Shown here: one piece after another, positions 2,780 through 17,535 of the stretch
Position numbering within the stretch: position 1 is the first letter of the stretch
Layout: each line of letters begins with the position of its first letter
Source: an uncultured Enterocloster sp.
GTDB lineage: Bacteria; Bacillota; Clostridia; Lachnospirales; Lachnospiraceae
DNA: 64,000 nt
Direction of reading: 5' to 3'
Assembly: GCA_944383785.1 (NCBI GenBank)
Contig: CALWQV010000003.1
Span: 25,528-89,527 of the forward strand
Program-made: the position numbers and the translations under genes
The notes under the pieces: generated by a model
Seen by the model: the letters and a program-made list of their open reading frames with translations, nothing else
The model's database searches: none
Told to the model about the DNA's origin: nothing

Positions 2780-2942
2780 CAGGGGAAACCACTCTGGAGA
2801 GTCTTCCTTAGGGGAAGCGCCGAAGGTGTAAGGCGGTGGACATTTGGGACGCAAGCCGATCTCTCAGGCAAAAGGACAGGGCATACCAAATATGCAGATG
2901 TTCTACTCTTTGGAGAGCTGACGAAATGTCAGCTCTATTTTT
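2780..2942 (+). promoter_or_regulatory. Glycine riboswitch with intrinsic terminator
   Basis: The conserved glycine-aptamer core is clear: GAAGCGCCGAAGGTGTAAGG (2814-2833) and CTCTCAGGCAAAAGGACAG (2861-2879). Only one aptamer is visible, preceded by the palindrome ACTCTGGAGAGT (2791-2802). A near copy, ACTCTTTGGAGAGC, lies downstream (2905-2918), as expected for a singlet riboswitch with a ghost-aptamer partner. The expression platform is a perfect 9-bp hairpin (2914-2922 with 2928-2936) followed by TATTTTT. Glycine binding probably prevents terminator formation and switches on the downstream symporter, the usual behaviour of this class. Confidence 0.93.
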
Positions 2943-2972: not shown

Positions 2973-4337
2973 ATGGACAAATTATTGAGCTTTGTGGAGA
3001 TGGGAAACGAGTTTCTCATGAGCTACTTTTTAGTAGTGGTGTTGTTTGGAACCGGCATTTACTATACCATCCGCCTGCGGTTTATTCAGGTGAGGCGGTT
3101 TAGGGAAGGCTTTAAGCTGGTGTTCGGAAACTTTAATATGAACGGTGAAAAGCATGAAAAGGGAGAGATGACCCCTTTTCAATCTGTGGCTACGGCCATC
3201 GCCGCCCAGGTGGGAACGGGAAACCTGGCGGGAGCAGCTACCGCCCTCATCGGAGGAGGGCCGGGGGCAATCTTCTGGATGTGGCTGTCCGCCTTCTTTG
3301 GCATGGCAACGATTTACGCCGAGGCGGTGCTGGCCCAGCAGTACCGGATCGAGGTGGATGGCGAGGTGACCGGTGGCCCGGTGTATTACATCAAGGCGGC
3401 CTTTAAGGGAACCTTTGGCCGGGTGCTGGCGGTTCTGTTCGCGGTATTTATCGTGCTGGCCCTGGGATTTATGGGAAATATGGTCCAGTCTAATTCCATC
3501 GGCGCGGCTTTTTCAGAGGTCTTTGCTCTCTGCAATCTAAATGTGCCGCCGGTGGCGGTGGGAGCGGTGATTGCCGCATTGTCCCTGGTGATTTTCCTGG
3601 GCGGAACCAAGAGGTTGGCTTCCGTGGTGGAGAAGCTGGTGCCGGTGATGGCGGGCTTTTATATTGTGGGAAGCCTGATTCTCATTGGGATGAATATTAC
3701 CCATGTGCCGGAGGCATTTATGCTGATTATCCGGGGAGCATTCAATCCATCTGCCGTTGTGGGAGGCGCGGCAGGAATCACCGTGAGGGAAGCCATCCGC
3801 TACGGTGTGGCAAGGGGGCTTTTCTCCAATGAGGCCGGTATGGGCTCCACTCCCCATGCCCACGCCAGGGCCAAAGCGAAATCTCCCCACCATCAGGGGC
3901 TTTGCGCGATGATCAGTGTATTTATTGATACCTTTATTATCCTGAATCTGACCGTATTTTCCATCCTGACTACTGGCGTGATTAGCAGCGGCAAAGACGG
4001 TACGGCTCTGACCCAGGAAGCTTTTATGCAGGGCTTTGGCTCATTGGGAATCGTTTTTGTGGCGGTGTGCCTGCTGTTTTTTGCTTACTCTACGATTTTG
4101 GGCTGGCATTTCTTTGGTTTAATCAATGTGAAATATCTGCTTGGCAAAAAGGCGGCGGCGGTTTACTCCGTGCTGGTGTGTGTGTTTATCGTTATCGGTT
4201 CCGCCTTGAAGGTGCAGCTGGTGTGGTCGCTGGCGGATTTCTTTAACGGGCTGATGGTGATTCCAAACGCCCTGGCGCTGTTGGCCCTAAGCGGGCTGGT
4301 GGCGAAGCTCAGCAGAAAATTAGATCATAAGGAGTAG
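2973..4337 (+). CDS. Alanine/glycine:cation symporter (AGCS family)
   Basis: 454 residues, with AGAGGAGG before the ATG. About ten to eleven hydrophobic segments. AGCS hallmarks are present: QVGTGNLAGAATAL (near residue 75), GGPVYYI, SNSIGAAF, GGTKRLASVVEKLVP and the motif GLFSNEAGMGSTPHAHA around residue 285. The family imports alanine or glycine with Na+ or H+. The glycine riboswitch in its leader makes glycine the likely main substrate, or a sensed signal for export or use of excess glycine. Single-gene transcription unit; the next gene is 113 bases away. Confidence 0.93.
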   Translation: MDKLLSFVEMGNEFLMSYFLVVVLFGTGIYYTIRLRFIQVRRFREGFKLVFGNFNMNGEKHEKGEMTPFQSVATAIAAQVGTGNLAGAATALIGGGPGAIFWMWLSAFFGMATIYAEAVLAQQYRIEVDGEVTGGPVYYIKAAFKGTFGRVLAVLFAVFIVLALGFMGNMVQSNSIGAAFSEVFALCNLNVPPVAVGAVIAALSLVIFLGGTKRLASVVEKLVPVMAGFYIVGSLILIGMNITHVPEAFMLIIRGAFNPSAVVGGAAGITVREAIRYGVARGLFSNEAGMGSTPHAHARAKAKSPHHQGLCAMISVFIDTFIILNLTVFSILTTGVISSGKDGTALTQEAFMQGFGSLGIVFVAVCLLFFAYSTILGWHFFGLINVKYLLGKKAAAVYSVLVCVFIVIGSALKVQLVWSLADFFNGLMVIPNALALLALSGLVAKLSRKLDHKE

Positions 4338-5866: not shown

Positions 5867-7027
5867 ATGGAGTTTTTGGAGGAAGCGAAACGGCAGTTTG
5901 GGGAGCTGATTCTGTCAGAACTTCAGCGGATCGAGCGGATGAAGGAGAGCGGTGCGCCTAAGGATTTTTCCAAGCTGGAGAAAATTGTGGTGGGCGTGAT
6001 GCCGGGGGATGGCATCGGCCCCATCATCATGAAGCAGGCATTAAGAGTCCTGGAAACCCTGATGAAGCCGGAGATTGAGAGCGGAAAGCTGGAAATCCGC
6101 CACATTGAGGGGATGACCATTGAAAACCGGGCGGCTCTCCTGCAAAGCCTGCCGGACAGCGTCTTAGAGCAGGTGAAGCAGTGCGACGTGCTTTTAAAAG
6201 GCCCCATGGTGACGCCCAGGGCGGGAGATCCCTGGCCTAACCTGATTTCCGCCAATAGCATGCTGCGCCGGTCCTTAGATCTGTACGCCGCGGTGCGGCC
6301 CATCAAAATCCCGGAGAAGGGCATCGACTGGACCTTTTTCCGCGAGAATATTGAGGGCGAGTACATCTGGGGCAACAAGGGAATCCAGGTAAACGAGGAT
6401 CTGGCGGTGGATTTTAAGGTGCAGACCAGACAGGGAAGCGAGCGCATTGCCCGGGCGGCCTTCGAGTTTGCCAGAAAGAACGGCAAGAAGAATGTAACCG
6501 TTGTGACCAAGGCCAACATCGTGAAGCTGGCGGACGGCAACTTTATCAAGGCGGTGCGCAAGGTAGGGGAAGAGTACCCGGAGATTGAGATTCAGGAGCG
6601 CCTGGTGGACGCCATGGCCGCCAAGATGATGGATCCGGAGTTTAACAAGGGTATCGAGGTCATTGTCCTGCCCAACCTTTACGGCGATATTGTCACCGAT
6701 GTGGCGGCTGAGGCCCAGGGCGGGCTGGGAACGGCTTCTTCCTCCAATCTGGGAGATCATTACGCCATGTTTGAGGCCATTCACGGCACTGCCCCTTATC
6801 TGATGAGCCATGGCCGTGGCGAGTACGCGGATCCCAGCTCCTTAATCCGGGCGGTGGGCATGATGCTTGGACAGATCGGCTATGTGGACCGGAAGAAAAA
6901 GCTGGAGGAGGCGATGGAGGTCTGCACGGTGTTGGAGAGAAAGGTGGTAATTACCACCATGCCGGAGGACGCCAGCACGGAGCAGTTTACGGATTATGTG
7001 ATCGAGACATTGGAAGAGATGAAGTAA
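5867..7027 (+). CDS. Isocitrate/isopropylmalate dehydrogenase-family enzyme
   Basis: 386 residues. Beta-decarboxylating dehydrogenase family: GVMPGDGIGP near residue 45, LLKGPMVTPRAGDPWP, SLDLYAAVRPIK, FRENIEGEYIWG, catalytic lysine in VTKANIVKLADG, and the metal/nucleotide end LPNLYGDIVTDVAAEAQGGL then AIHGTAPYL. It has an N-terminal extension of about 40 residues. The FREN motif favours isocitrate-type over isopropylmalate-type substrates, and the residues after GTAP favour NAD, but homoisocitrate or tartrate dehydrogenase cannot be excluded. It sits between two LysR genes and near an aconitase-family cluster, fitting tri- or dicarboxylate metabolism. Good AGGAGG site before the ATG. Confidence 0.85.
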   Translation: MEFLEEAKRQFGELILSELQRIERMKESGAPKDFSKLEKIVVGVMPGDGIGPIIMKQALRVLETLMKPEIESGKLEIRHIEGMTIENRAALLQSLPDSVLEQVKQCDVLLKGPMVTPRAGDPWPNLISANSMLRRSLDLYAAVRPIKIPEKGIDWTFFRENIEGEYIWGNKGIQVNEDLAVDFKVQTRQGSERIARAAFEFARKNGKKNVTVVTKANIVKLADGNFIKAVRKVGEEYPEIEIQERLVDAMAAKMMDPEFNKGIEVIVLPNLYGDIVTDVAAEAQGGLGTASSSNLGDHYAMFEAIHGTAPYLMSHGRGEYADPSSLIRAVGMMLGQIGYVDRKKKLEEAMEVCTVLERKVVITTMPEDASTEQFTDYVIETLEEMK

Positions 7028-7745: not shown

Positions 7746-8618
7746 TTAATCCGTCTCCCGAAAATACTCGTCCGCCAGCACCGCCTTTATAAACATCTTC
7801 ACCTGGGGCAGTTCAAAATAGTCATGGCGGTAGAGAATATGGGAGGTACGGGTGAAGGCGGTTCCATCGGGAAAATGCAGGGGGCGGATGAGGCCGTCAA
7901 AGCCTTCTAAGCAGATGGCGGGAAGGATGGCCCAGCCGATGCCCCGGGATACCATGGCCAGACAGCTTCCAATGTCGTCGATCCAGAGATTCACGCGGCT
8001 TCCATAGCAGCACCGCTCCTGACGCCAGCGTTCAATCTCATCAAAGAAGGCCTGGTCTGTGTGGCGGCCAATGTAAGGCAGCTGGTTTAATGGAGTATGA
8101 GCGTGTTCATTGGCAACCACCAGGCAGACCGGCTCCTCCCGCAGAGTGACGATCCCCTCGTCCCACTGGAAATTGCCTCGCACCAGGGCGATGGAAATCT
8201 CATTTTCCTTCAGACTGCGGTAAAGGCGGGTGCTCTGCTGGGTGTTGACATGGATATCCACTTTTGGATACTGAGCCATATAGTTTTTTAATACATCAGG
8301 CAGACGGTAGCGGGCATAGTTGACGGATACGCCGATTTTTAAAGTACCGGCCACGTCCCCGGCGATGGAGGCCAGGTCGATGTGGATTTTCTGCATGGAG
8401 GCGGAGATTGCCCGGATATGGGGAAGGATGGTTTCCGCTGCCGGGGTAAAAATAATTCCTTTGCGGGAGCGGATGAGCAGGGTGCAGCCCAGCTCCTCCT
8501 CTAATTTTTGAATACGCTTTGTAAGAGCGGACTGGGTGGTGAAAAGCTTCCCGGCCGCTTTTGTGATATTTCCCGTTTGCTCTAACATTTCAAGCATTTC
8601 ACAGTCTTTTTCATCCAT
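7746..8618 (-). CDS. LysR-type transcriptional regulator (ybhD-like position)
   Basis: 290 residues. Standard LysR layout: winged HTH at residues 3-60 (EQTGNITKAAGKLFTTQSAL), linker helix, and substrate-binding domain from about 90 (GTLKIGVSVNYARYRLPDVL) to the end. The gene diverges from the PrpF-to-PrpD operon with 165 bases between starts, the classic arrangement for a LysR activator of the adjacent operon. A perfect inverted repeat ATTCC-N5-GGAAT lies in that gap. In E. coli the LysR gene ybhD holds the equivalent position beside ybhH-ybhI-ybhJ. The effector is probably a tri- or dicarboxylate (inference). Confidence 0.88.
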   Translation of the reverse strand: MDEKDCEMLEMLEQTGNITKAAGKLFTTQSALTKRIQKLEEELGCTLLIRSRKGIIFTPAAETILPHIRAISASMQKIHIDLASIAGDVAGTLKIGVSVNYARYRLPDVLKNYMAQYPKVDIHVNTQQSTRLYRSLKENEISIALVRGNFQWDEGIVTLREEPVCLVVANEHAHTPLNQLPYIGRHTDQAFFDEIERWRQERCCYGSRVNLWIDDIGSCLAMVSRGIGWAILPAICLEGFDGLIRPLHFPDGTAFTRTSHILYRHDYFELPQVKMFIKAVLADEYFRETD

Positions 8619-8653
8619 TTCTTTTGAATCCCCCTTTTTATTACAAGAAAATC

Positions 8654-8720
8654 ATTCCAAATTGGAATTGAATTTAATGAAATTATACAATTTTACAGAA
8701 TGATAATCAAGAGGTATATT
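8654..8720 (+). promoter_or_regulatory. LysR operator and promoter of the tricarboxylate operon
   Basis: Perfect inverted repeat ATTCCAAATTGGAAT at 8654-8668, then TTTACA (8692-8697), 17 bases and TATATT (8715-8720). The repeat is 23 bases upstream of the -35 box, the usual position of a LysR recognition site for activation of the rightward operon and autorepression of the leftward gene. Confidence 0.65.
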
Positions 8721-8783
8721 AGGGTTAGAAAGAAAAACGGGAGATTAATCCCAAAAGAGTGAAGGAAAAGGAGGAAACAGACT

Positions 8784-9908
8784 ATGTATATGACCAAATA
8801 CCCCTGTGTTTACATGAGAGGCGGCACCAGTAAGGCCGTATTTTTCCACGAGAAGGATCTTCCCGAGGACCGCAGCAAATGGGATGAGATTTTCTTGAAG
8901 GTAATGGGAACCCCGGATGTAAAGCAGATCGACGGCATGGGAGGAACCGTTTCTTCTACCAGTAAGATCGCCGTTATTTCCCCCTCTGACCGTGAGGATG
9001 TGGATGTAAACTATACCTTCCGCCAGGTGGATATTGTGATTCCCAGAGTGGATGGAAGCGCCAACTGCGGAAATATTTCCTCCGCCGTAGGCCCCTTCGC
9101 CATCGATGAAGGTCTGGTTCCCGCCGTAGAGCCCATCACGGTGGTTCGGATTTTAAATACCAACACCAACAAGATCATTGAGGAGCATGTGCGGGTAAAG
9201 GACGGAAAGGCTATGGTTCACGGGGATGAGGTGATTAAAGGCGTTCCCGGCACCGGCTCCCGCATCGATATGTATTTTGAGGATCCGGCTGGCTCAAAGA
9301 CGGGAAAACTGTTCCCCACCGGACAGAAGAAGGAGATTTTCGACGTTCCCGGCTACGGCCCGGCGGAGGTGACGGTTTTAGACTGCTCTAATCCTATGGT
9401 ATTTATCAAGGCTTCCGACCTGGGAATTAAAGGGACGGAGCTGGTGGAGTTAAACCAGAACAAGGATGTGATGGAGCACATTGAGCGTATCCGGGGGATG
9501 GCTGCCGTTAAGTGCGGTTTTGTGGAGAACTGGGAGGATGCCAGAACGAAATCCACCTCCGCGCCTAAGGTTTCCATTATCTCCGCTCCCCAGGATTATG
9601 TGGATATGGATGGAAATACGGTGAAGGCGGAGGATATGGACATCTGCGTGCGCGCCATTTCCGTAGGAGCCCTTCACAAGGCCTATCCCATGACCGTGGC
9701 CGTGGGAACCGGCGCGGCGGCGAGGATTCCCGGAACCATCGTTTATGAGACGGCGGTGAACGATAAGAACAGCGATATTATCCGCCTGGGACATTCCAGC
9801 GGCATTACCGAGGTGGACATCAAGATGGACGGCGAGAAGGTCTTAAAGGGCGGCGTGACCCGGACGGCCAGACGGATTATGGACGGCTATGTATACGTAA
9901 GAGATTAA
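8784..9908 (+). CDS. PrpF-family isomerase (ybhH-like)
   Basis: 374 residues. PrpF/DAP-epimerase-like fold: YMRGGTSKAVFF at residues 9-20, GMGGTVSSTSKIAVIS, ANCGNISSAVGPFAIDEG (catalytic-type Cys near 96), and SVGALHKAYPMTVAVGTGAA near the C-terminus. Relatives isomerise 2-methyl-aconitate (PrpF), oxalomesaconate (GalD) or methylitaconate (Mii), moving a double bond in a tri- or dicarboxylic acid. First gene of the operon; AAGGAGG precedes the ATG. E. coli YbhH belongs to this family and sits in the same neighbourhood. The exact substrate is unknown. Confidence 0.88.
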   Translation: MYMTKYPCVYMRGGTSKAVFFHEKDLPEDRSKWDEIFLKVMGTPDVKQIDGMGGTVSSTSKIAVISPSDREDVDVNYTFRQVDIVIPRVDGSANCGNISSAVGPFAIDEGLVPAVEPITVVRILNTNTNKIIEEHVRVKDGKAMVHGDEVIKGVPGTGSRIDMYFEDPAGSKTGKLFPTGQKKEIFDVPGYGPAEVTVLDCSNPMVFIKASDLGIKGTELVELNQNKDVMEHIERIRGMAAVKCGFVENWEDARTKSTSAPKVSIISAPQDYVDMDGNTVKAEDMDICVRAISVGALHKAYPMTVAVGTGAAARIPGTIVYETAVNDKNSDIIRLGHSSGITEVDIKMDGEKVLKGGVTRTARRIMDGYVYVRD

Positions 9909-9933
9909 AGAAGAGGGAGTAGGAGGTTTGATT

Positions 9934-11187
9934 ATGGGAATGCAGATTTTAGCCCTGGCCTGTTTGATCGGCGCCATCGTATTGGGCTTTGTGAAAAAGG
10001 TAAATGTGGGAATCGTATGTCTGGGCCTGGCTTTGATTTTGGGTAAGATCGGAGGGATTTCCGACGGAGATATCTACGCCGGATTCCCCTACAAGCTGTT
10101 TTGCACACTGCTTGGCACTATGCTGTTTTTCAGCCTGCTGCAGCAGAACGGAACCCTGGAGAAAATTTCCCAGAAGCTGATCGGTCTTTGCGGAAAGAAC
10201 ACCTTCCTGGTGCCGGTAATTATCTATATCGTCAGCTATCTGCTGTCTGCCGCGGGCCCCGGAGCCATCAGCGTGCAGTCCGTAACCGTGCTCTTTGCCG
10301 TTTCCCTGGCAGTGCAGATGAATGCCAGCCCCGTGCTTATGGGCGCCATGGCCATCCTGGGAGCGGTGGGAGGAACCGCTTCCCCCATCGCCCTGACCGG
10401 AATTATCGTGGAAGAGCTGCTGCTGGAAATGGATATTACCGGCATGGGGATGCCGATTTTCCTGGGCGTCAGCCTTGCCAACTTCACCTGCGCGGTAGTG
10501 ACCTATGTGGTTCTGGGCGGCTATAAGATCCGCCAGGCTCCGGGCACGGCTCAGAAAACAGTGGAAAAATTTGACGGAAAGCAGATTATGAGCCTGATCG
10601 CCATTCTGGTAATGGTGGTGCTGGTGGTAGGATTTGCTTTTGATGTGGGCCTGGTGTGCCTGACTCTGGCCCTGATCCTGATTCTTTTGGGCGCGGCGGA
10701 TGAGAAGAAGGCGATCAAGATGATCCCCTGGGGCACCCTGCTTTTAATCGCGGGCGTATCCGTCCTGATGAGCATCACAGAAACCCTGGGCGGAATCCAG
10801 CTCTTGAGCGATATCCTGGCTTCCTTTATGAATACCCGCACCGCCGCGCCTCTGATGGGACTGACCGGCGGAATCATGTCCTGGTTCTCCAGCGCCAACG
10901 GCGTGGTATTCCCCACCTTGATTCCCACGGTTCCCGATGTGGCCGCCCAGGTAGGCGGAGCCTCCATTGTCCAGATGACGGCGGCCATCGTCTGCAGCGC
11001 TACGGTGGCGGGAATCAGCCCCATGTCTACCGGAGGAAGCCTGGTTATGGCAGGCTATGCCCAGGAGACGGGCTGTGACGACAAGGAGCAGCAGAAGGTA
11101 TTCGGCCAGCTGTTCTTAGTATCCGCAGGCTGCGTGCTGGTTGTATTTGTTCTGACCTTTGTGGGGCTGTTGTCTCTGGTTGGATGA
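9934..11187 (+). CDS. SLC13/MatC-like di- or tricarboxylate carrier
   Basis: 417 residues from the ATG at 9934, chosen because AGGAGG (9921-9926) is seven bases upstream; an in-frame TTG at 9928 is too close to that site. About eleven to twelve hydrophobic segments. The N-terminal half resembles the dicarboxylate carrier MatC N-terminal domain (SAAGPGAISVQSVTVLFAVS, GAVGGTASPIALTG); the second half repeats a pore-loop-like motif (WFSSANGVVFPTLIPTVPD, AGISPMSTGGSLVMAG). It probably takes up the acid that the flanking isomerase and hydratase process. E. coli has a different DASS-type carrier, YbhI, in this position. Confidence 0.82.
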   Translation: MGMQILALACLIGAIVLGFVKKVNVGIVCLGLALILGKIGGISDGDIYAGFPYKLFCTLLGTMLFFSLLQQNGTLEKISQKLIGLCGKNTFLVPVIIYIVSYLLSAAGPGAISVQSVTVLFAVSLAVQMNASPVLMGAMAILGAVGGTASPIALTGIIVEELLLEMDITGMGMPIFLGVSLANFTCAVVTYVVLGGYKIRQAPGTAQKTVEKFDGKQIMSLIAILVMVVLVVGFAFDVGLVCLTLALILILLGAADEKKAIKMIPWGTLLLIAGVSVLMSITETLGGIQLLSDILASFMNTRTAAPLMGLTGGIMSWFSSANGVVFPTLIPTVPDVAAQVGGASIVQMTAAIVCSATVAGISPMSTGGSLVMAGYAQETGCDDKEQQKVFGQLFLVSAGCVLVVFVLTFVGLLSLVG

Positions 11188-11217
11188 TTGGAATGAGAGA
11201 GAAGGAGGAGCGCGAAT

Positions 11218-12267
11218 ATGAGCGTATATGCATACATAGGCTGCCGCACCACAAAGGAGCGAAACGCCAGGGGAAAGGGAATTAGCGTCTATTCGGTGGA
11301 GAAGGGCAGATGGGAGCTTTTGCAGCTTTTAGAGGGGGAGGTCAATCCCTCCTACCTCTGCCTGAATGAGGCTCAGAACCGTCTTTATGCCATCCACGGG
11401 GATTTCTGTCAGGTAAGCTCATACGAAATCCATGAGGATGGAACTATTTCCTCTATCAATACGGTGGACACCCACGGGACCAATCCCGTCCATCTGACCC
11501 TGGATCCTACGGGAAAATGGCTTTTCGTGGCCAATCTCCAGACCGGCGGCGTATCCGTGATACCCGTAAATGAGGACGGTTCCCTGGGGCATATTAAGGA
11601 ATTGAAATTCATATCCGGAAACGGAGGCCCAGGCTATATTTCCCATCCCCACCAGGTGAAGCTGGATGGCAGCGGCAGATGGCTTCTGGTGCCATCCCAG
11701 GGAAGGCTTCAGGGTATAGGAAAGATTACGGTTTTTGAGGTTGATTCCAAGGAGGGAGATCTGCGGGAGCACTTTGTGGCCAAGGCCAGAACCGGGGCGG
11801 AGCCCAGGCACTGCGTATTCCATCCCAATAACCGGTTCTGCTATGTACTGAATGAGAAGGACAGCACGGCGGCCCTTTACTACTTCGATGAGGAAAAGGG
11901 AACACTTGAAGGCAAACAGATCCTTATGACCATTCCTGAAGATTACACCGGGGACGGCTGGGCCAGCGCCATTGACATTGACCCGGCTGGGCGGTTCCTC
12001 TATGTGTCCAACCGCAAGCATGACAGCGTGACGGTATTTACCCTAGATCAGGAAAACGGCCGTATGAGCTGGCTGCAGAACATTGCTACCGAAGGGGTTC
12101 AGCCCCGCTTTATCACCGTAAGTCCTGATGGAAGCCAGCTTCTGGCGGCCAACGAGCTTTCCGATACCATCCGTGTTTTTGACGTGGAAGAAGACGGACA
12201 TCTGGCATACAGCGGCGTTACCGTAGCCACTGAGAGCCCGGTGTGCGCGGTTTTTAAAACGAAATAA
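11218..12267 (+). CDS. Seven-bladed beta-propeller lactonase (Pgl/YbhE family)
   Basis: 349 residues with repeated propeller signatures such as DPTGKWLFVANLQTGGVSV, HPHQVKLDGSGRWLLVPSQG, HPNNRFCYVLNEKDS and DPAGRFLYVSNRKHDS, each one blade. Family members hydrolyse 6-phosphogluconolactone or act on carboxymuconate lactones. Here it sits inside a tricarboxylate operon, not beside zwf or gnd, so a carboxylic-acid lactone is as likely as 6-phosphogluconolactone. In E. coli pgl (ybhE) is also next to the ybhD-H-I-J genes, which supports an old functional link. Good GGAGG site before the ATG. Confidence 0.85.
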   Translation: MSVYAYIGCRTTKERNARGKGISVYSVEKGRWELLQLLEGEVNPSYLCLNEAQNRLYAIHGDFCQVSSYEIHEDGTISSINTVDTHGTNPVHLTLDPTGKWLFVANLQTGGVSVIPVNEDGSLGHIKELKFISGNGGPGYISHPHQVKLDGSGRWLLVPSQGRLQGIGKITVFEVDSKEGDLREHFVAKARTGAEPRHCVFHPNNRFCYVLNEKDSTAALYYFDEEKGTLEGKQILMTIPEDYTGDGWASAIDIDPAGRFLYVSNRKHDSVTVFTLDQENGRMSWLQNIATEGVQPRFITVSPDGSQLLAANELSDTIRVFDVEEDGHLAYSGVTVATESPVCAVFKTK

Positions 12268-12281
12268 AAAAGGAGAAATGA

Positions 12282-14555
12282 ATGATGGTTACACTGCATA
12301 AAGGCCCCCATTATATCATAGACAACAGCCGCATCGCGGCCCCTGGCGAGCCGGGACTGACCCCGCCTGAGGAGGCGAAGAAGCAGACCCTCACCTACCA
12401 GGTGCTGGAGAAGCACAACCACTCCGAAAATATGGAGCATCTGCAGATCAAGTTTGACTGCATGGGCGTTTACGATAATACTTATGTGGGAATCCTCCAG
12501 ACCGCCTACGCCAGCGGCTTAAAGGAATTTCCCATGCCCTGCGTCTTTACCAACTGCCATAACTGCCTCTGCGCCGTAGGCGGAACCATCAACACCGACG
12601 TCCATAAGTACGCCGAGAGCGCCTGCGTGAAGTCCGGCGGCATTTTCGTTCCCCCTCACGAGGCGGTGATTCACCAGTACATGCGGGAAATGATGATCAA
12701 TTCCGGCGACATGGCCATTGTCTCCGACTCCCATACCCGTTACGGCACTCAGGGTTCCGTGTCCATCGGCGAGGGCGGCCCGGAACTGGCGAAGGCTATG
12801 CTGGGAAAATACTATGAGATCGACTATCCCCAGGTGATCGCCGTGTACTTAACCGGCGCTCCCAAGCCCTGGGTAGGCCCCATGGACGTGGCGCTGAGCC
12901 TCATCGGGGCGGTATTTAAGAATAATTTCGTGAAGAATAAGGTTCTGGAGTTTGTGGGCCCCGGCGTGAAGAGCCTGTCCATGGATTTTAGAAACGGCAT
13001 CGACACCATGACCACCGAGTCCGCCTGCCTTTCCTCCGTGTGGGTGACCGATGAGAACACCAGGGAGTATTTTGAGGTTCACGGCCGTCCCCAGGGTTAT
13101 CAGAAAATGGAGCCCGGAAGCCAGGCCCTCTACGACGGCATCGTGGAAATCAACCTGGATACGGTGGTTCCCATGATCGCCCTGCCCTTCCATCCCAGCA
13201 ACGCTTATCCCCTGGCGGATGTGATCGCCGACCCGGAGAAGTATCTTGGCATGGTAGAGGAAGAGGCTAAGAGGGTGTTTGAAAACAATAAGGATATCCA
13301 CCTGGATTTAAAGTCCAAGATCATAAACGGCAAAATCAAGGTAGACCAGGCCGCCATCGCGGGCTGCGCCGCCGGTTCCTTTGAGAATATATGCGCGGTG
13401 GACGCCATTGCCAAAAAGGAGAACCGGGGGCTTGGCACGTTCCCCTTGAATATTTACCCGGCATCCCAGCCCATTATGTACGAGCTGAACCGCGTCGGGG
13501 TGCTCAACGACCTGATGAACTACGGCGTTCGGGTAAAGACCGCCTTCTGCGGCCCCTGCTTCGGCGCTTCCGATGCTCCCGGAAACAACGATTTCTGCAT
13601 CCGCCACAGCACCCGCAACTTCCCCAACCGGGAGGGCTCTAACCCGGCAACGGGACAGATCGCTTCCGTAGCCCTGATGGATTCCAAGTCCATTGCCGCC
13701 ACTGCCTTTAACGGCGGTTATCTGACCTCGGCGGAGGATGTGCAGGTGGAGTACGAGATCCCGGCCTACCATTTCAATCATCATATTTATGATAATATTG
13801 TGTACAATGGCTTTGGAAAGGCAAAGCCTGAGACGGAGCTGGTTTACGGCCCCTCCATCAAGGACTGGCCTAAGATGGCTCCCCTTACCGACAATCTGCT
13901 GTTAAAGGTAGCCAGTGTCATCCGGGATGAGGTGACCACCACTGATGAGCTGATTCCCTCCGGCGAGACGGCTTCCTACCGCTCCAATCCCTACAAGATT
14001 TCCGAGTACACCTTAATCCGCAAGGATCCAGCTTATGTGGGCAACGCCAAGGCCATCCAGGCATATGAGACTGCCCGCAGAAATGGGGACGCATCCAAGG
14101 CGGCAGAGGTTTACGAGGTACTGAAGGCAGTGGGAATCGAGGAACCTGCCGAAGAGCTGGCAAAGACCACCGGAATCGGCTCTGTGCTCTACGCCAAACG
14201 GCCCGGCGACGGTTCAGCCAGAGAGTACGCCGCCAGCTGTCAGAAGGTGCTGGGAGGCCTGGCAAATATCTGTATTGAGTATGCCACCAAGCGTTACCGC
14301 AGTAACTGCGTCAACTGGGGCATCCTGCCCTTTACCTGCCCGGATGAGGAGATCGATCTGGCGGTAGGCGAATACCTTTACCTGCCGGGAATCCGCAGGG
14401 AGGTAGAAGAGGGAGCTACTGAGATTACGGCAAAGGTGATCGGAACCGATGGAAGCGTTAGGGACTTAAAGCTGAATCTGCCGGGAGTTAGCGAGGCGGA
14501 GAAGCAGGTGCTCCTTGCAGGCAGCCTGATTAATTTCTACAAGCAGGACCAGTAA
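12282..14555 (+). CDS. Aconitase-family hydratase (YbhJ-like)
   Basis: 757 residues, close to the length of E. coli YbhJ. The aconitase fold is marked by IVSDSHTRYGTQG (about 147-157) and three cysteines expected to bind the [4Fe-4S] cluster, C362 (IAGCAAGS), C423 and C426 (FCGPCFGASD), with the substrate-arginine region HSTRNFPNREG nearby. The C-terminal swivel domain ends at about residue 740 (YRSNCVNWGILPF). It is not a canonical AcnA, AcnB or LeuC, so the substrate is uncertain; a citrate-like tricarboxylate is likely given PrpF and PrpD beside it. AGGAG site six bases before the ATG. Confidence 0.88.
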   Translation: MMVTLHKGPHYIIDNSRIAAPGEPGLTPPEEAKKQTLTYQVLEKHNHSENMEHLQIKFDCMGVYDNTYVGILQTAYASGLKEFPMPCVFTNCHNCLCAVGGTINTDVHKYAESACVKSGGIFVPPHEAVIHQYMREMMINSGDMAIVSDSHTRYGTQGSVSIGEGGPELAKAMLGKYYEIDYPQVIAVYLTGAPKPWVGPMDVALSLIGAVFKNNFVKNKVLEFVGPGVKSLSMDFRNGIDTMTTESACLSSVWVTDENTREYFEVHGRPQGYQKMEPGSQALYDGIVEINLDTVVPMIALPFHPSNAYPLADVIADPEKYLGMVEEEAKRVFENNKDIHLDLKSKIINGKIKVDQAAIAGCAAGSFENICAVDAIAKKENRGLGTFPLNIYPASQPIMYELNRVGVLNDLMNYGVRVKTAFCGPCFGASDAPGNNDFCIRHSTRNFPNREGSNPATGQIASVALMDSKSIAATAFNGGYLTSAEDVQVEYEIPAYHFNHHIYDNIVYNGFGKAKPETELVYGPSIKDWPKMAPLTDNLLLKVASVIRDEVTTTDELIPSGETASYRSNPYKISEYTLIRKDPAYVGNAKAIQAYETARRNGDASKAAEVYEVLKAVGIEEPAEELAKTTGIGSVLYAKRPGDGSAREYAASCQKVLGGLANICIEYATKRYRSNCVNWGILPFTCPDEEIDLAVGEYLYLPGIRREVEEGATEITAKVIGTDGSVRDLKLNLPGVSEAEKQVLLAGSLINFYKQDQ

Positions 14556-14566
14556 AAGGAGATTAT

Positions 14567-15952
14567 ATGAAAACCGGTCAGGAAAAAAGTGAAATTCGGA
14601 AATTAGCGGAATGGATTCATGATATGTCCTGGGAAAAAATGCCCGGTAAAGTCCAGGAGGCCGCCGGCCTGCGGGTGCTGGACTTGGTGGGAGCCGGCCT
14701 GGGAGCGGTGAAGGATCCCTTAATGGAGGCGGTAATCGCCTCCTACGGGAGCCGCTATGGGCGAGGGCCTGCTTCTGTGTGGGGCCGGAGTGAGAAATTT
14801 CCGGTGGAAATAGCCGCCAAGGTCAACGCCATGCTGGCCCATACCCTGGAGCTGGACGATGTCCACCCGGCCTCCAAGACCCACGGCAGCGCCAGCATCA
14901 TCCCTGCCGCCTGGGCATTGGCGGAAAGCCTTCACAGCAGCGGCGAGGAATTTTTGACGGCTGTGATTTGCGGCTATGAGGTGACGGCCCGCATCGGTAT
15001 GGCCTTGGGAGTGACGGCCCACCGGAAGAAAGGCTGGCACGCTACCGCTACCTGCGGTATCTTTGGCTGCGCCGCCGCCGGAGCTAAACTTTTGGGACTG
15101 GAAACGGAACAGATCATCTGGGCCCTTGGAATGGCGGGAACCCAGAGCGGCGGCCTTTGGGCCTTCCTGGGAGACGGGGCAAGCTGCAAGGCGCTGCACC
15201 CGGGCCACTGCGCCGCCTGCGGGCTGGACGCCGCCTTTTTGGCGGAGGCTGGCATGACAGGGCCAGAGCATATCCTGGACGCGGAGGACGGAGGGCTGCT
15301 GGCGGCGATGTCCGATGATTATGACCTTTCCAAAGCGGGAGCGGGCCTGGGGGAGGTATGGGAGATCCTGAATATGGACGTAAAGCCCTACCCCTGCTGC
15401 CGGAGCATCCACTGCATCATTGACGGGGTTCTTAAAATCCGAGACAAAATGATGGAAAAAGGGCTGTCCGCAGAGGAACTGAGGGAAATGCGGGTTTACA
15501 CTTATCAGGTGGGATTTAAACAGTGCGCCGTAAGCGAGGGCTGTTTAAATCCAAGATCGCCGCTGGACGCGAAATTCTCTTCCCCCTACGGGGCGGCGGC
15601 GGCCCTGCTGTTCGGCAAGGTGACCAGACAGGAATATGAGCCTTCGGTCATCGAAGATCCCAGAGTGAAGGCCCTGATCCGGAAGATTTCCGTGGAGCCC
15701 GATGAAGAGCTGAGCGGCCAGTATCCGGCTCACTGGGGCTGCCGTATTCTGACGGAGTTTGCGGATGGAACCAGATTCTCGGAGGCAATCCAGGATCCTT
15801 CCGGCAGCTTTCAGAACCCCCTTTCTCTCAAACAGCTGGAGGATAAGGCGGAAAGCCTTATCGGCGCGGCATTTCCCGGACGGGAGAAGGAAATTGCGGA
15901 TCAGCTGTGGAATATCGCAGAGTGGGAACAGATGCCGAAGCTGGGGAGATAA
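14567..15952 (+). CDS. MmgE/PrpD-family dehydratase or decarboxylase
   Basis: 461 residues. MmgE/PrpD fold: LELDDVHPASKTHGSASIIPAAWALAE is split as LELDDVHPASKT then HGSASIIPAAWAL (active-site His/Asp region), HATATCGIFGCAAAGAKLLG, GDGASCKALHPGHCAACGLD, and KPYPCCRSIHCIIDG (the second catalytic-lid region). The family contains 2-methylcitrate dehydratase and cis-aconitate decarboxylase (itaconate producer), so with the PrpF and aconitase homologues it could dehydrate or decarboxylate a tricarboxylate. No methylcitrate synthase or lyase is in the window, so a complete methylcitrate cycle is not supported here. Last gene of the operon, eleven bases after the hydratase gene. Confidence 0.85.
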   Translation: MKTGQEKSEIRKLAEWIHDMSWEKMPGKVQEAAGLRVLDLVGAGLGAVKDPLMEAVIASYGSRYGRGPASVWGRSEKFPVEIAAKVNAMLAHTLELDDVHPASKTHGSASIIPAAWALAESLHSSGEEFLTAVICGYEVTARIGMALGVTAHRKKGWHATATCGIFGCAAAGAKLLGLETEQIIWALGMAGTQSGGLWAFLGDGASCKALHPGHCAACGLDAAFLAEAGMTGPEHILDAEDGGLLAAMSDDYDLSKAGAGLGEVWEILNMDVKPYPCCRSIHCIIDGVLKIRDKMMEKGLSAEELREMRVYTYQVGFKQCAVSEGCLNPRSPLDAKFSSPYGAAAALLFGKVTRQEYEPSVIEDPRVKALIRKISVEPDEELSGQYPAHWGCRILTEFADGTRFSEAIQDPSGSFQNPLSLKQLEDKAESLIGAAFPGREKEIADQLWNIAEWEQMPKLGR

Positions 15953-15972: not shown

Positions 15973-16006
15973 AGGGCGCGGCTAGGAACCGCGCCCTGCT
16001 GTTTTT
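15973..16006 (+). terminator. Intrinsic terminator of the tricarboxylate operon
   Basis: Perfect 9-bp stem AGGGCGCGG/CCGCGCCCT (15973-15981 with 15989-15997), seven-base loop, then a T-run at 16002-16006. Confidence 0.85.
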
Positions 16007-16097: not shown

Positions 16098-16469
16098 TTG
16101 AAACTTGAATACGCATCAGATAAAGTCAAATTACAATGCACGAGTATAAAAGCTGCAAAAAAGCTTTTTGGCGGGAATGCGGAGCTATCTACAAGCCTTT
16201 TATCAAGGGTGAATGCCCTTGGTAATGCCGAAACGATCAAGGATATTATTGTGCAGCCCGTTTTTAGATTTCATAAACTGAAGCATAAAAAAGGTAGAAA
16301 CCTAGAAGGATATTTTGCGATTGATGTGAAATCAATTAGAGAGCCGTGGAGAATTATTTTACAGCCATTAAATCAAGACAGGCAACCTTATGATCCATGT
16401 AATATTGATGAAATAGCGGAATGCGTAAGAATTGTAGAGATTCTGGAGGTGAGCAGACACTATGAGTAA
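16098..16469 (+). CDS. HigB/RelE-like toxin
   Basis: 123 residues from a TTG at 16098 behind GGAGAAGGT; there is no better in-frame start. The size, the basic central strand FHKLKHKKGRNLEGYFAIDV and the ending of the type WRIILQPL ... IVEILEVSRHYE resemble HigB/RelE-family mRNA interferases (killer proteins), although family resemblance is only moderate. The gene overlaps the antitoxin by eight bases. AT-richer than its neighbours, consistent with gene transfer. A type II toxin-antitoxin reading rests mainly on the pairing with the HigA-like gene. Confidence 0.72.
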   Translation: MKLEYASDKVKLQCTSIKAAKKLFGGNAELSTSLLSRVNALGNAETIKDIIVQPVFRFHKLKHKKGRNLEGYFAIDVKSIREPWRIILQPLNQDRQPYDPCNIDEIAECVRIVEILEVSRHYE

Positions 16470-17535
16470 TTATATTGAATATAAGGATAAAATCGCGTTC
16501 CATCCCGGCTATTATATTAAAGAAATCGTTGAAAATAGCGGCCTTACGCAGGAGGATTTTGCCAAGAGGCTGGATACGACGCCGAAAAATCTTAGCTTGC
16601 TGATTAGAGGAGAACAGAATTTATCGATCGATATAGCGATGAAATTATCCAGAATGATGAGCACAAGCATCAGCTATTGGCTGAGTTTGCAGAGTACGTA
16701 TGAGGCTTTGATTGGGGAATTTAAATCAGATGAAGAACTTATGAAAGAACGAGAGGTATTTAGTTGCATCGATTATAAGTATTTTCGAATCCATTATGGC
16801 TTGCCGGATTTGCCTAGAAAAAAAGACGAGCAGATTAAGAGGCTCAGAGAGTTTTTGAATGTATCTACGCTTACGGTATTTGCTGACCGGGATATGACAG
16901 TTAGCTTTAGAAGTGCTGGGAAAGAGCTGACAGCGGCAAATATTATCAAAGCAAATATAATGGTTCAAATTGCGATCAATCAGACATTAAAGATAAAGGC
17001 GCCGAAATTTAATAAAAGGAAGCTGGAAGACTCTGCAAAATACGCGCTGACTTTGACTAAAAATCATGATACGTTTTACCCTCTGATTCGGGAGGCATTT
17101 CTTAAAGCAGGGGTAGTTTTTTGTATTTTGCCGAATTTCTCCGGTTCAAAGATAAATGGTGCTACAAAAAAAGTGGGCGATCACATTATGCTGATGGTCA
17201 ATGATAGAAGGCTAAATGCGGATACATTTTGGTTTACGCTGTTTCATGAGATTGGCCATATTATGAATGGGGATTATGGGATTTCTTTTGAAAAGGAAAG
17301 TGGACAGCAGGAAGAAACCGCGAATCAGTATGCGGCGGACAGCTTGATTCCACCAGAGGAATATCATAAATTTTTATTGGAAAAGAAATTTGATGAAGTA
17401 TCGATTAAAACTTTCGCTGACCAGATTGACCGGGATCCGGGAATTATTGTGGGGAGGCTTCAAAATGATGGAATTGTCGGATTTGACGACTGGAGGATGA
17501 AGCCGTTACGCCATAAATATGTGGTAAAAATTTAA
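16462..17535 (+). CDS. HigA-type antitoxin fused to ImmA/IrrE-like metallopeptidase
   Basis: 357 residues. Residues about 12-75 are a HigA-family XRE helix-turn-helix (FHPGYYIKEIVENSGLTQED, LIRGEQNLSIDIAMKLSRMM). After a linker of about 120 residues the C-terminus is a zinc peptidase domain with HEIGH at 262-266 and the third ligand likely E285 in the EETANQYAAD motif, as in ImmA/IrrE proteins. Typical HigA antitoxins are about 100 residues, so this is the long fused form. The peptidase domain may let the repressor respond to a signal or cleave a partner. Co-transcribed with the toxin; AT-rich composition. Confidence 0.88.
   Translation: MSNYIEYKDKIAFHPGYYIKEIVENSGLTQEDFAKRLDTTPKNLSLLIRGEQNLSIDIAMKLSRMMSTSISYWLSLQSTYEALIGEFKSDEELMKEREVFSCIDYKYFRIHYGLPDLPRKKDEQIKRLREFLNVSTLTVFADRDMTVSFRSAGKELTAANIIKANIMVQIAINQTLKIKAPKFNKRKLEDSAKYALTLTKNHDTFYPLIREAFLKAGVVFCILPNFSGSKINGATKKVGDHIMLMVNDRRLNADTFWFTLFHEIGHIMNGDYGISFEKESGQQEETANQYAADSLIPPEEYHKFLLEKKFDEVSIKTFADQIDRDPGIIVGRLQNDGIVGFDDWRMKPLRHKYVVKI

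Follow-up and report, generated by a model that had tools for sequence, protein, structure and literature searches.

A gene set predicted to serve trans-aconitate use in an uncultured Enterocloster and its counterparts in Acidaminococcaceae

What do a LysR-type regulator, a PrpF-family isomerase, an anion carrier, a Pgl-like β-propeller, a YbhJ-type aconitase, and an MmgE/PrpD-family enzyme do side by side? Their genes lie within a 64,000-nucleotide stretch (the window) of contig CALWQV010000003.1 from an uncultured Enterocloster sp. of the family Lachnospiraceae, whose genome (3.02 Mb in 167 contigs) is about 91% complete. An initial annotation read them as an anaerobe version of the uncharacterised E. 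coli pgl-ybhDHIJ cluster. We consider, with a probability of roughly two in three, that they form an inducible operon through which trans-aconitate, or a few C6 tricarboxylates related to it, can be fermented as a source of carbon. The MatC carrier would import trans-aconitate, PrpF would isomerise it to cis-aconitate, and YbhJ, acting as a [4Fe-4S] aconitase, would hydrate cis-aconitate to citrate and isocitrate; flux would presumably run in this direction. Citrate would be split by a citrate lyase encoded elsewhere in the host genome, and isocitrate could be converted to 2-oxoglutarate through an upstream gene of the isocitrate/isopropylmalate dehydrogenase family (IDH-like). The divergent LysR would control the operon through the palindrome ATTCC-N5-GGAAT. 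The Pgl-like and PrpD-like proteins would be side-branch enzymes through which related compounds enter the same pool; a tricarboxylate lactone, or an aconitate needing hydration or decarboxylation, would be examples.

A check of open reading frames (ORFs) confirmed the positions of all six genes (Table 1). The five genes from PrpF to PrpD are separated by gaps of 19, 30, 14, and 11 nt. The operon probably extends from 8784 to 15952, and the hairpin beyond it is likely its end; terminator-like sites over the whole region were no commoner than in shuffled sequences. The LysR protein matched CcpC best among the NCBIfam models, well below the cut-off (190.7 vs. 400 bits), and its relatives (37%–47% identity) stand divergently beside PrpF in loci L013, L238, L239, L240, L243, and L245.

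The initial annotation had expected YbhJ neighbourhoods to show a recurring association with PrpF, Pgl, and PrpD. A generic YbhJ-PrpF association was rejected: among the best 80 YbhJ loci of a longer scan of named genomes, which were not a random sample and some of which had short flanks, PrpF shared the locus in four, namely L012 and L013 (Acidaminococcus), L060 (a metagenome-assembled genome named Paenibacillaceae), and L082 (Citrobacter, E. coli-type). What does recur is the combination of PrpF, YbhJ, MatC, and Pgl, often with PrpD, in Acidaminococcaceae. Among the matches listed, the nearest relatives of the window YbhJ were those of Acidaminococcus (L012 and L013, 70% and 68% identity). 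A FastTree phylogeny of 100 YbhJ proteins placed it in a clade of eight (support 1.0), all eight with PrpF within 6 kb, and none of these loci had been fetched through PrpF.

A Pgl-seeded search of 63 Acidaminococcales genomes gave 14 matches in nine genomes. L012, L013, L060, and L071 had entered the comparison via YbhJ, L161–L178 via PrpF, Pgl, or YbhJ, L238–L248 via Pgl, and L249–L253 via PrpF. Neighbouring genes were placed by tblastn features, because calling the longest ORF first had masked genes overlapped by antisense ORFs at some loci. L238, L239, and L240 have a LysR gene divergent from PrpF (77%–78% identity), YbhJ (69%), PrpD (47%–50%), and an IDH-like gene (66%–67%), with MatC (63%) and Pgl (52%) nearby. 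L245 combines a LysR gene divergent from PrpF-YbhJ-PrpD with an Acn2-Pgl-MatC group, Acn2 being the PRK07229/TIGR01342 aconitase type. In L012, L013, and L243, PrpF-YbhJ-MatC-Pgl is followed downstream by a gene of the oxaloacetate decarboxylase/pyruvate carboxylase B family, whose product in L013 scored above the cut-off for pyruvate carboxylase subunit B and below those for OadA. In L244, L246, L247, and L248, the Acn2 gene of an Acn2-Pgl-MatC group lies between Pgl and a LysR gene, and L241 and L242 carry MatC-Pgl only. Relatives of the IDH-like gene (61%–81%) lie in or beside PrpF-YbhJ units in L238, L239, L240, L250, L251, and L252, and this gene belongs to the recurring set. Across the phylum, the Pgl search found matches at E ≤ 1e-50 in 2 of 398 genomes, one of them the host. 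The true counterpart of the window set is the group of Acidaminococcaceae clusters, not E. coli. Since a second bacterial family has both the gene set and the candidate operator, the grouping is more than chance.

That operator, ATTCC-N5-GGAAT, was exact in seven of eight intervals compared by eye, and had one mismatch in L245. A scan of 28 loci found 13 exact copies (the window, L012, L013, L071, L167, L239, L241, L242, and L243, with two each in L238 and L240), and each lies about 70–220 bp, measured by hand, upstream of a PrpF gene or a MatC/Pgl pair. In eight genomes there were 2–15 copies per genome, against 0–4 for a control read backward, so any one 165-bp interval would hold an exact site by chance with a probability on the order of 0.1%. 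When one mismatch was tolerated, the window showed no excess of the pattern over shuffled sequences (2 copies vs. a mean of 4.2); the operator carries weight because exact copies recur where they do, not through its one-mismatch frequency. L241, at a contig edge, and L242 have the MatC-Pgl pair without PrpF yet with the site. Since the palindrome precedes the PrpF operon and also MatC-Pgl pairs that stand apart from it, it appears to tie the two into one regulon, with the divergent LysR as the putative regulator acting there. No exact copy was found in the same scan in the Acn2-Pgl-MatC loci L244, L246, L247, and L248, or in L060, L161–L164, L166, and L249–L252.

The window PrpF is predicted to be an aconitate isomerase that interconverts the trans and cis forms. 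Its K61 and C95 align with K73 and C107 of the S. oneidensis PrpF (PMC5690661). It scored below the NCBIfam equivalog cut-offs for prpF (303.3 vs. 440.6 bits) and 4-oxalomesaconate tautomerase (319.9 vs. 440 bits). The tar operon of B. velezensis (TarR-TarA-TarB; PMC11495376) offers an experimental precedent: according to the accessible part of that paper, it consists of a divergent LysR gene, a PrpF-family aconitate isomerase of about 375 residues, and a transporter, a layout that the window shares; TarA is likened to the window PrpF by family and size, not by sequence. The two differ in that TarB is an MFS protein, whereas the window carrier is of the MatC/CitMHS type; TarR is described as binding TTATAA motifs, in place of the candidate palindrome here; and the tar operon as presented there has no aconitase, Pgl, or PrpD. 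The same source lists an Acidaminococcus among predicted trans-aconitate users and describes trans-aconitate as abundant in some grasses and maize.

Trans-aconitate is a known substrate of A. fermentans (PMC3035267). The gene list in the accessible text of that paper brings together MatC carriers, citrate lyase, aconitate hydratases, and an isocitrate/isopropylmalate dehydrogenase (including Acfer_1968, 1969, 1971, and 1973), much as in the window; the list names no PrpF and no lactonase, and the organisation varies by strain. L247, which we take to be A. fermentans, has the order IDH, MatC, Pgl, Acn2, LysR, YbhJ, PrpF, an order that suggests that the gap at Acfer_1970 may be the Pgl gene. The initial annotation had left the tricarboxylate open; it is best read as trans-aconitate because A. 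fermentans uses this compound and its family holds the closest clusters.

The PrpF-YbhJ set also recurs beside citrate lyase genes. L060 has a single run of MatC-PrpF-YbhJ-CitD-CitE-CitF-CitG-CitC (CitF above and CitE below the profile cut-off; CitD, CitG, and CitC identified by eye), and L251 has CitD-E-F, an RraA-like gene, IDH, PrpF, and YbhJ on one strand. An L010 relative of the RraA-like protein matched 4-carboxy-4-hydroxy-2-oxoadipate aldolase/oxaloacetate decarboxylase models below their cut-offs. L252 has PrpF-YbhJ-IDH and L250 PrpF-MatC-IDH-YbhJ. In the host itself, contig C14 carries citrate lyase genes, a second YbhJ (72% identity to that of E. coli), and an IDH-like gene, and contig C92 a tar-type LysR gene divergent from a PrpF-MatC pair, in which the MatC match spans only about 39% of the carrier. 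Other PrpF pathways were also seen: in L173, L174, and L175, PrpF stands beside LeuC/LeuD-like subunits (27%–34% identity to Acn2), with coenzyme A-transferase-, hydroxymethylglutaryl-coenzyme A-lyase-, and aldehyde-dehydrogenase-like genes in L173 and L174 and PrpD-like and phosphoenolpyruvate-mutase-like genes in L175, all by eye.

The window YbhJ scored well above the curated NF008503/PRK11413 cut-off (1097.3 vs. 641 bits), and far below that for AcnD (77.3 vs. 1419.9 bits), which it is not. Its C362, C423, and C426 and its D149-S150-H151 align with the Fe-S cysteines and DSH of mitochondrial aconitase; the roles of these residues, and of Asp100 and Ser643, are those we presume for that enzyme. 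YbhJ was present in 186 of 200 Lachnospiraceae genomes (E ≤ 1e-100), whereas Acn2, another full-length aconitase type, was present in seven, counting the host, at identities of 72% or more; the remaining matches of the Acn2 search were 29%–37% identical and mostly about 400–430 residues long, as are LeuC-type large subunits. From these counts, in a comparison that covers the Acn2 type only, YbhJ is probably the ordinary aconitase of the family. Many YbhJ homologues are probably ordinary aconitases too, and not tied to PrpF. YbhJ lies beside a citrate synthase gene in 4 of 78 loci (L042, L049, L064, and L066), a NifV-type synthase in three (L052, L063, and L086), and CitE-like genes in three (L030, L060, and L067), together 10 of 78, and no neighbour recurs in more than 6 of 78; one member of each neighbour cluster was checked by profile. 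The NifV-type gene lies directly before YbhJ in all three loci; that of L063 exceeds the homocitrate synthase cut-off (516.9 vs. 462.9 bits), and those of L052 and L086 were assigned by BLAST cluster. It might serve glutamate synthesis as a Re-type citrate synthase. Beyond the window copy, the host genome has two YbhJ paralogues, one at L009 11634–13934 near citrate lyase genes and the other at L010 3992–6247, in a run of an RraA-like gene, Acn2, IDH (81% to that of the window), and YbhJ.

How far, then, does the parallel with E. coli reach? In E. coli K-12, pgl (+), ybhD (−), and ybhH, ybhI, and ybhJ (+) adjoin in this order. All five families that the initial annotation named do occur together in both organisms, and a LysR gene divergent from PrpF, carrier, and YbhJ is common to both. 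Identities are 52% for YbhJ, 37.5% for PrpF/YbhH, and 28% for Pgl. The two differences that it had pointed out were borne out: the E. coli cluster is without PrpD, and its carrier YbhI gave no BLAST match to the window carrier at E 1e-3. The pgl part, however, is incidental. This gene is convergent to ybhD and thus outside the ybhHIJ transcription unit, and among 99 Enterobacteriaceae genomes (family in the GTDB sense; many genomes small) pgl was found in 85 (E ≤ 1e-60; 33%–93% identity) and ybhJ in three (E ≤ 1e-100). In four relatives that lack ybhJ (L254–L257), ybhH, ybhI, and ybhJ were not seen; pgl stands directly beside ybhC in two of them (L255 and L257), beside ybhA with other genes on its far side in L256, and beside neither in L254. 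The E. coli ybhDHIJ genes fill exactly the space between pgl and ybhC and look like an insert; loss elsewhere is possible, and less likely given that ybhJ occurs in so few genomes. A tree of 83 Pgl proteins separates the 31 rows from Enterobacteriaceae from a 20-row clade that holds the window protein, each group with 100/100 support. Orthology of the two Pgl proteins was therefore rejected, and membership in an E. coli-type unit, taken as a same-clade Pgl within it, does not extend to the window. From the convergence, the genome counts, and the separate clades, the pgl resemblance falls away, whereas the part made up of LysR, PrpF, the carrier, and YbhJ holds. That part fits the shared tricarboxylate or aconitate-isomer pathway first proposed, without E. 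coli pgl in it. As reported in the accessible part of PMC9068703, ybhH is upregulated in a ybhD mutant, and there is a growth phenotype with L-malate; these data neither support nor exclude aconitate as the E. coli substrate.

The proposal that Pgl is a true pathway enzyme survives for the anaerobes and fails for E. coli pgl. Within 7 kb, 16 of the 20 members of the window clade (the window protein among them) had a tricarboxylate gene and 19 had MatC; the Pgl-seeded Acidaminococcales subset had 12 and 14 of 14. Of 24 control loci of the Lactonase family from Lachnospiraceae, L165 was dropped for lack of a Pgl match at the threshold; the other 23 had a tricarboxylate gene in four (each an Iso_dh match of 28%–29%, perhaps LeuB) and MatC in none, and Enterobacteriaceae pgl loci had neither (0 of 4 each). 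The window Pgl clade thus looks like a pathway enzyme here. The protein falls below the curated cut-off for 6-phosphogluconolactonase PRK11028 (167.9 vs. 370 bits). It belongs to one family (PF10282) with E. coli Pgl and shares six residues with the E. coli type (H145, R197, H198, E213, R266, and R297); it differs in its gene context, an extra N-terminal RTT..ER stretch, and more basic residues. R10, T11, T12, R15, H60, R163, R191, and K214 are invariant or nearly so in the clade and differ or are absent in E. coli-type Pgl, T11 being common in other Lactonase-family rows as well. The clade-specific basic residues would suit a substrate with several carboxylates or a polycarboxylate lactone. 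The structure model has a mean predicted local distance difference test score of 90.6, with residues 13–19 of low confidence. Two further clade members in the host are L163 1857–2915, divergent from a MatC gene, and L164 2830–3858, with a TAA in the matched stretch and neither MatC nor a tricarboxylate gene in its vicinity; both loci lack an exact operator copy.

The PrpD-like protein is far below the cut-off for 2-methylcitrate dehydratase PrpD, TIGR02330 (39.2 vs. 458 bits). Its top match was iminodisuccinate (IDS) epimerase (157.9 bits), followed by cis-aconitate decarboxylases (121.7 bits). Two-base MmgE/PrpD epimerases are described in the accessible text of PMC12290011 as carrying an additional catalytic tyrosine. 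In the window protein and five relatives an arginine aligns with the tyrosine of IDS epimerase, whose position was read from the alignment; the distant L175 protein has tyrosine. The motif AHRK[KR]GWH is present in the window and four relatives, and L249 has SHRNRGWH. A two-base epimerase role (IDS epimerase or methylsuccinate isomerase) was rejected for lack of the tyrosine before the GWH motif. Without that second base, the PrpD-like enzyme is more likely a decarboxylase or a hydratase than an epimerase.

Several observations weigh against trans-aconitate as the substrate. Since the route can do without Pgl and PrpD, some other compound may be the true substrate. The PrpF family also includes enzymes for 2-methylaconitate, 3-methylitaconate, and oxalomesaconate; among solved relatives, 3-methylitaconate isomerase comes nearest to the window PrpF; and in the accessible part of PMC11495376, 3 of 10 isolates had PrpF homologues with low aconitate isomerase activity. 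In YbhJ, Cys92 and Ala646 occupy the positions of Asp100 and Ser643 of mitochondrial aconitase, and the IDH-like protein fell below the cut-offs of all 18 NCBIfam models that it matched. L166 has Pgl-MatC-PrpF yet no operator, and L247 is arranged differently (Acn2-Pgl-MatC and YbhJ-PrpF), without an exact copy in the stretch read.

A rival reading takes a tricarboxylate lactone (isocitrate or hydroxycitrate lactone or similar) as the main substrate: MatC would import it, the Pgl-like protein would open it, YbhJ, PrpD, and IDH would process the product, and PrpF would handle an aconitate by-product. Pgl-MatC is indeed the most constant pair, the operator-bearing pairs of L241 and L242 have no PrpF or aconitase within 7 kb, and R10, R15, H60, R163, R191, and K214 set the clade apart from E. 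coli-type Pgl. We nevertheless hold this to be unlikely: a single literature search aimed at an isocitrate-lactone lactonase gave no matching paper, adjacent PrpF and MatC occur without Pgl nearby in L060, L162, L170, L172, L250, and L253, and R15 lies in the low-confidence model loop, so that its proximity to the active site is only presumed. A broader idea, to which we give somewhat less than even odds, is that the Pgl-like proteins are the first representatives of a new class of lactonases, or of lactonising enzymes, with a C6 tricarboxylate as substrate. Gut anaerobes would then either consume a tricarboxylate lactone, for instance isocitrate lactone, or convert aconitate and isocitrate into each other via a lactone, by a route outside the known citrate and aconitate pathways to which the PrpD-like enzyme would add a further step.

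The family names PrpF and PrpD, and the solved methylitaconate isomerase, point instead to a pathway of the methylcitrate or methylitaconate type, either the PrpF/AcnD/PrpD route of propionate use or the methylitaconate isomerase and dimethylmaleate hydratase of nicotinate fermentation. This is very improbable, as the PrpD-like protein is nearer IDS epimerase and cis-aconitate decarboxylase than PrpD, and YbhJ is not AcnD. The methylcitrate cycle itself was rejected: no match to methylisocitrate lyase (PrpB) was found in the host genome, as far as it is complete, and none of nine genomes had PrpB above the cut-off, with sub-threshold matches in three. We give as little credence to an operon that makes itaconate, with PrpD as cis-aconitate decarboxylase and MatC as an aconitate/itaconate exchanger. 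The second-best match fits such an enzyme, the epimerase tyrosine is absent as expected of a one-base enzyme, and the basic stretch AHRK[KR]GWH could hold a third carboxylate; the top match is nevertheless the epimerase, and L012, L013, and L243 showed no PrpD while retaining PrpF, YbhJ, MatC, and Pgl. The one pgl-ybhDHIJ pathway common to E. coli and the anaerobe is scarcely credible: the joint presence of the five families speaks for it, and the counts of pgl and ybhJ, the convergence of pgl and its place beside ybhC in half of the ybhJ-lacking relatives, and the separate Pgl clades speak against it.

Trans-aconitate use is physiologically known, and at least one gut anaerobe ferments the compound; the genes for its anaerobic use have so far been listed only loosely. 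We found no description of the conserved gene set, the operator, or the lactonase clade in the open-access literature searched, mostly below full-text depth. The preferred reading, an operon for trans-aconitate, supplies a set of genes and one predicted operator that can be tested. It further suggests that the protein named just 'hydratase', YbhJ, is the ordinary aconitase of a large gut-bacterial family, and that the uncharacterised E. coli ybhDHIJ may serve aconitate use. The separation of E. coli pgl from the ybh cluster removes a misleading clue, and the comparison points to a lactonase clade whose substrate is probably highly anionic.

Table 1. Features of the predicted operon and its surroundings (window positions).
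Feature	Position	Strand	Evidence or remark
LysR-type regulator	7746..8618	-	LysR_substrate + HTH_1 (Pfam); divergent from PrpF
PrpF-family isomerase, predicted aconitate isomerase	8784..9908	+	Pfam PrpF 427.5 bits
MatC/CitMHS-type anion carrier, predicted tricarboxylate uptake	9928..11187	+	MatC_N 81.9 bits, CitMHS 88.9 bits
Pgl-like beta-propeller, Lactonase family	11218..12267	+	PF10282 279.3 bits
YbhJ-type aconitase, predicted citrate/cis-aconitate/isocitrate interconversion	12282..14555	+	Aconitase (Pfam); NF008503/PRK11413
MmgE/PrpD-family enzyme	14567..15952	+	MmgE_PrpD_N/C (Pfam)
Candidate operator ATTCCAAATTGGAAT (ATTCC-N5-GGAAT)	8654..8668		LysR-type T-N11-A palindrome
Promoter-like site TTTACA-17-TATATT	8692..8720	+	10/12, consensus match only
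Terminator-like hairpin, 9 pairs (8 G-C)	15973..15997	+	20 nt past prpD-like stop
Isocitrate/isopropylmalate-dehydrogenase-family protein (IDH-like)	5867..7027	+	just outside the interval first annotated
Second LysR-type regulator, 388 residues	4451..5617	+	two HTH_1 matches; upstream of IDH-like gene

The second LysR-type regulator apparently has tandem DNA-binding domains. Upstream of it, a glycine riboswitch aptamer (RF00504, 55.6 bits) lies at 2784–2889 (+), just before a gene of the sodium:alanine symporter family (2973–4337). Directly past the operon, at 16098–17535 (+), a short ORF resembling a HigB-type toxin by eye is followed by a gene for an HTH_3 and Peptidase_M78 protein, and the two form a toxin-antitoxin-like pair.

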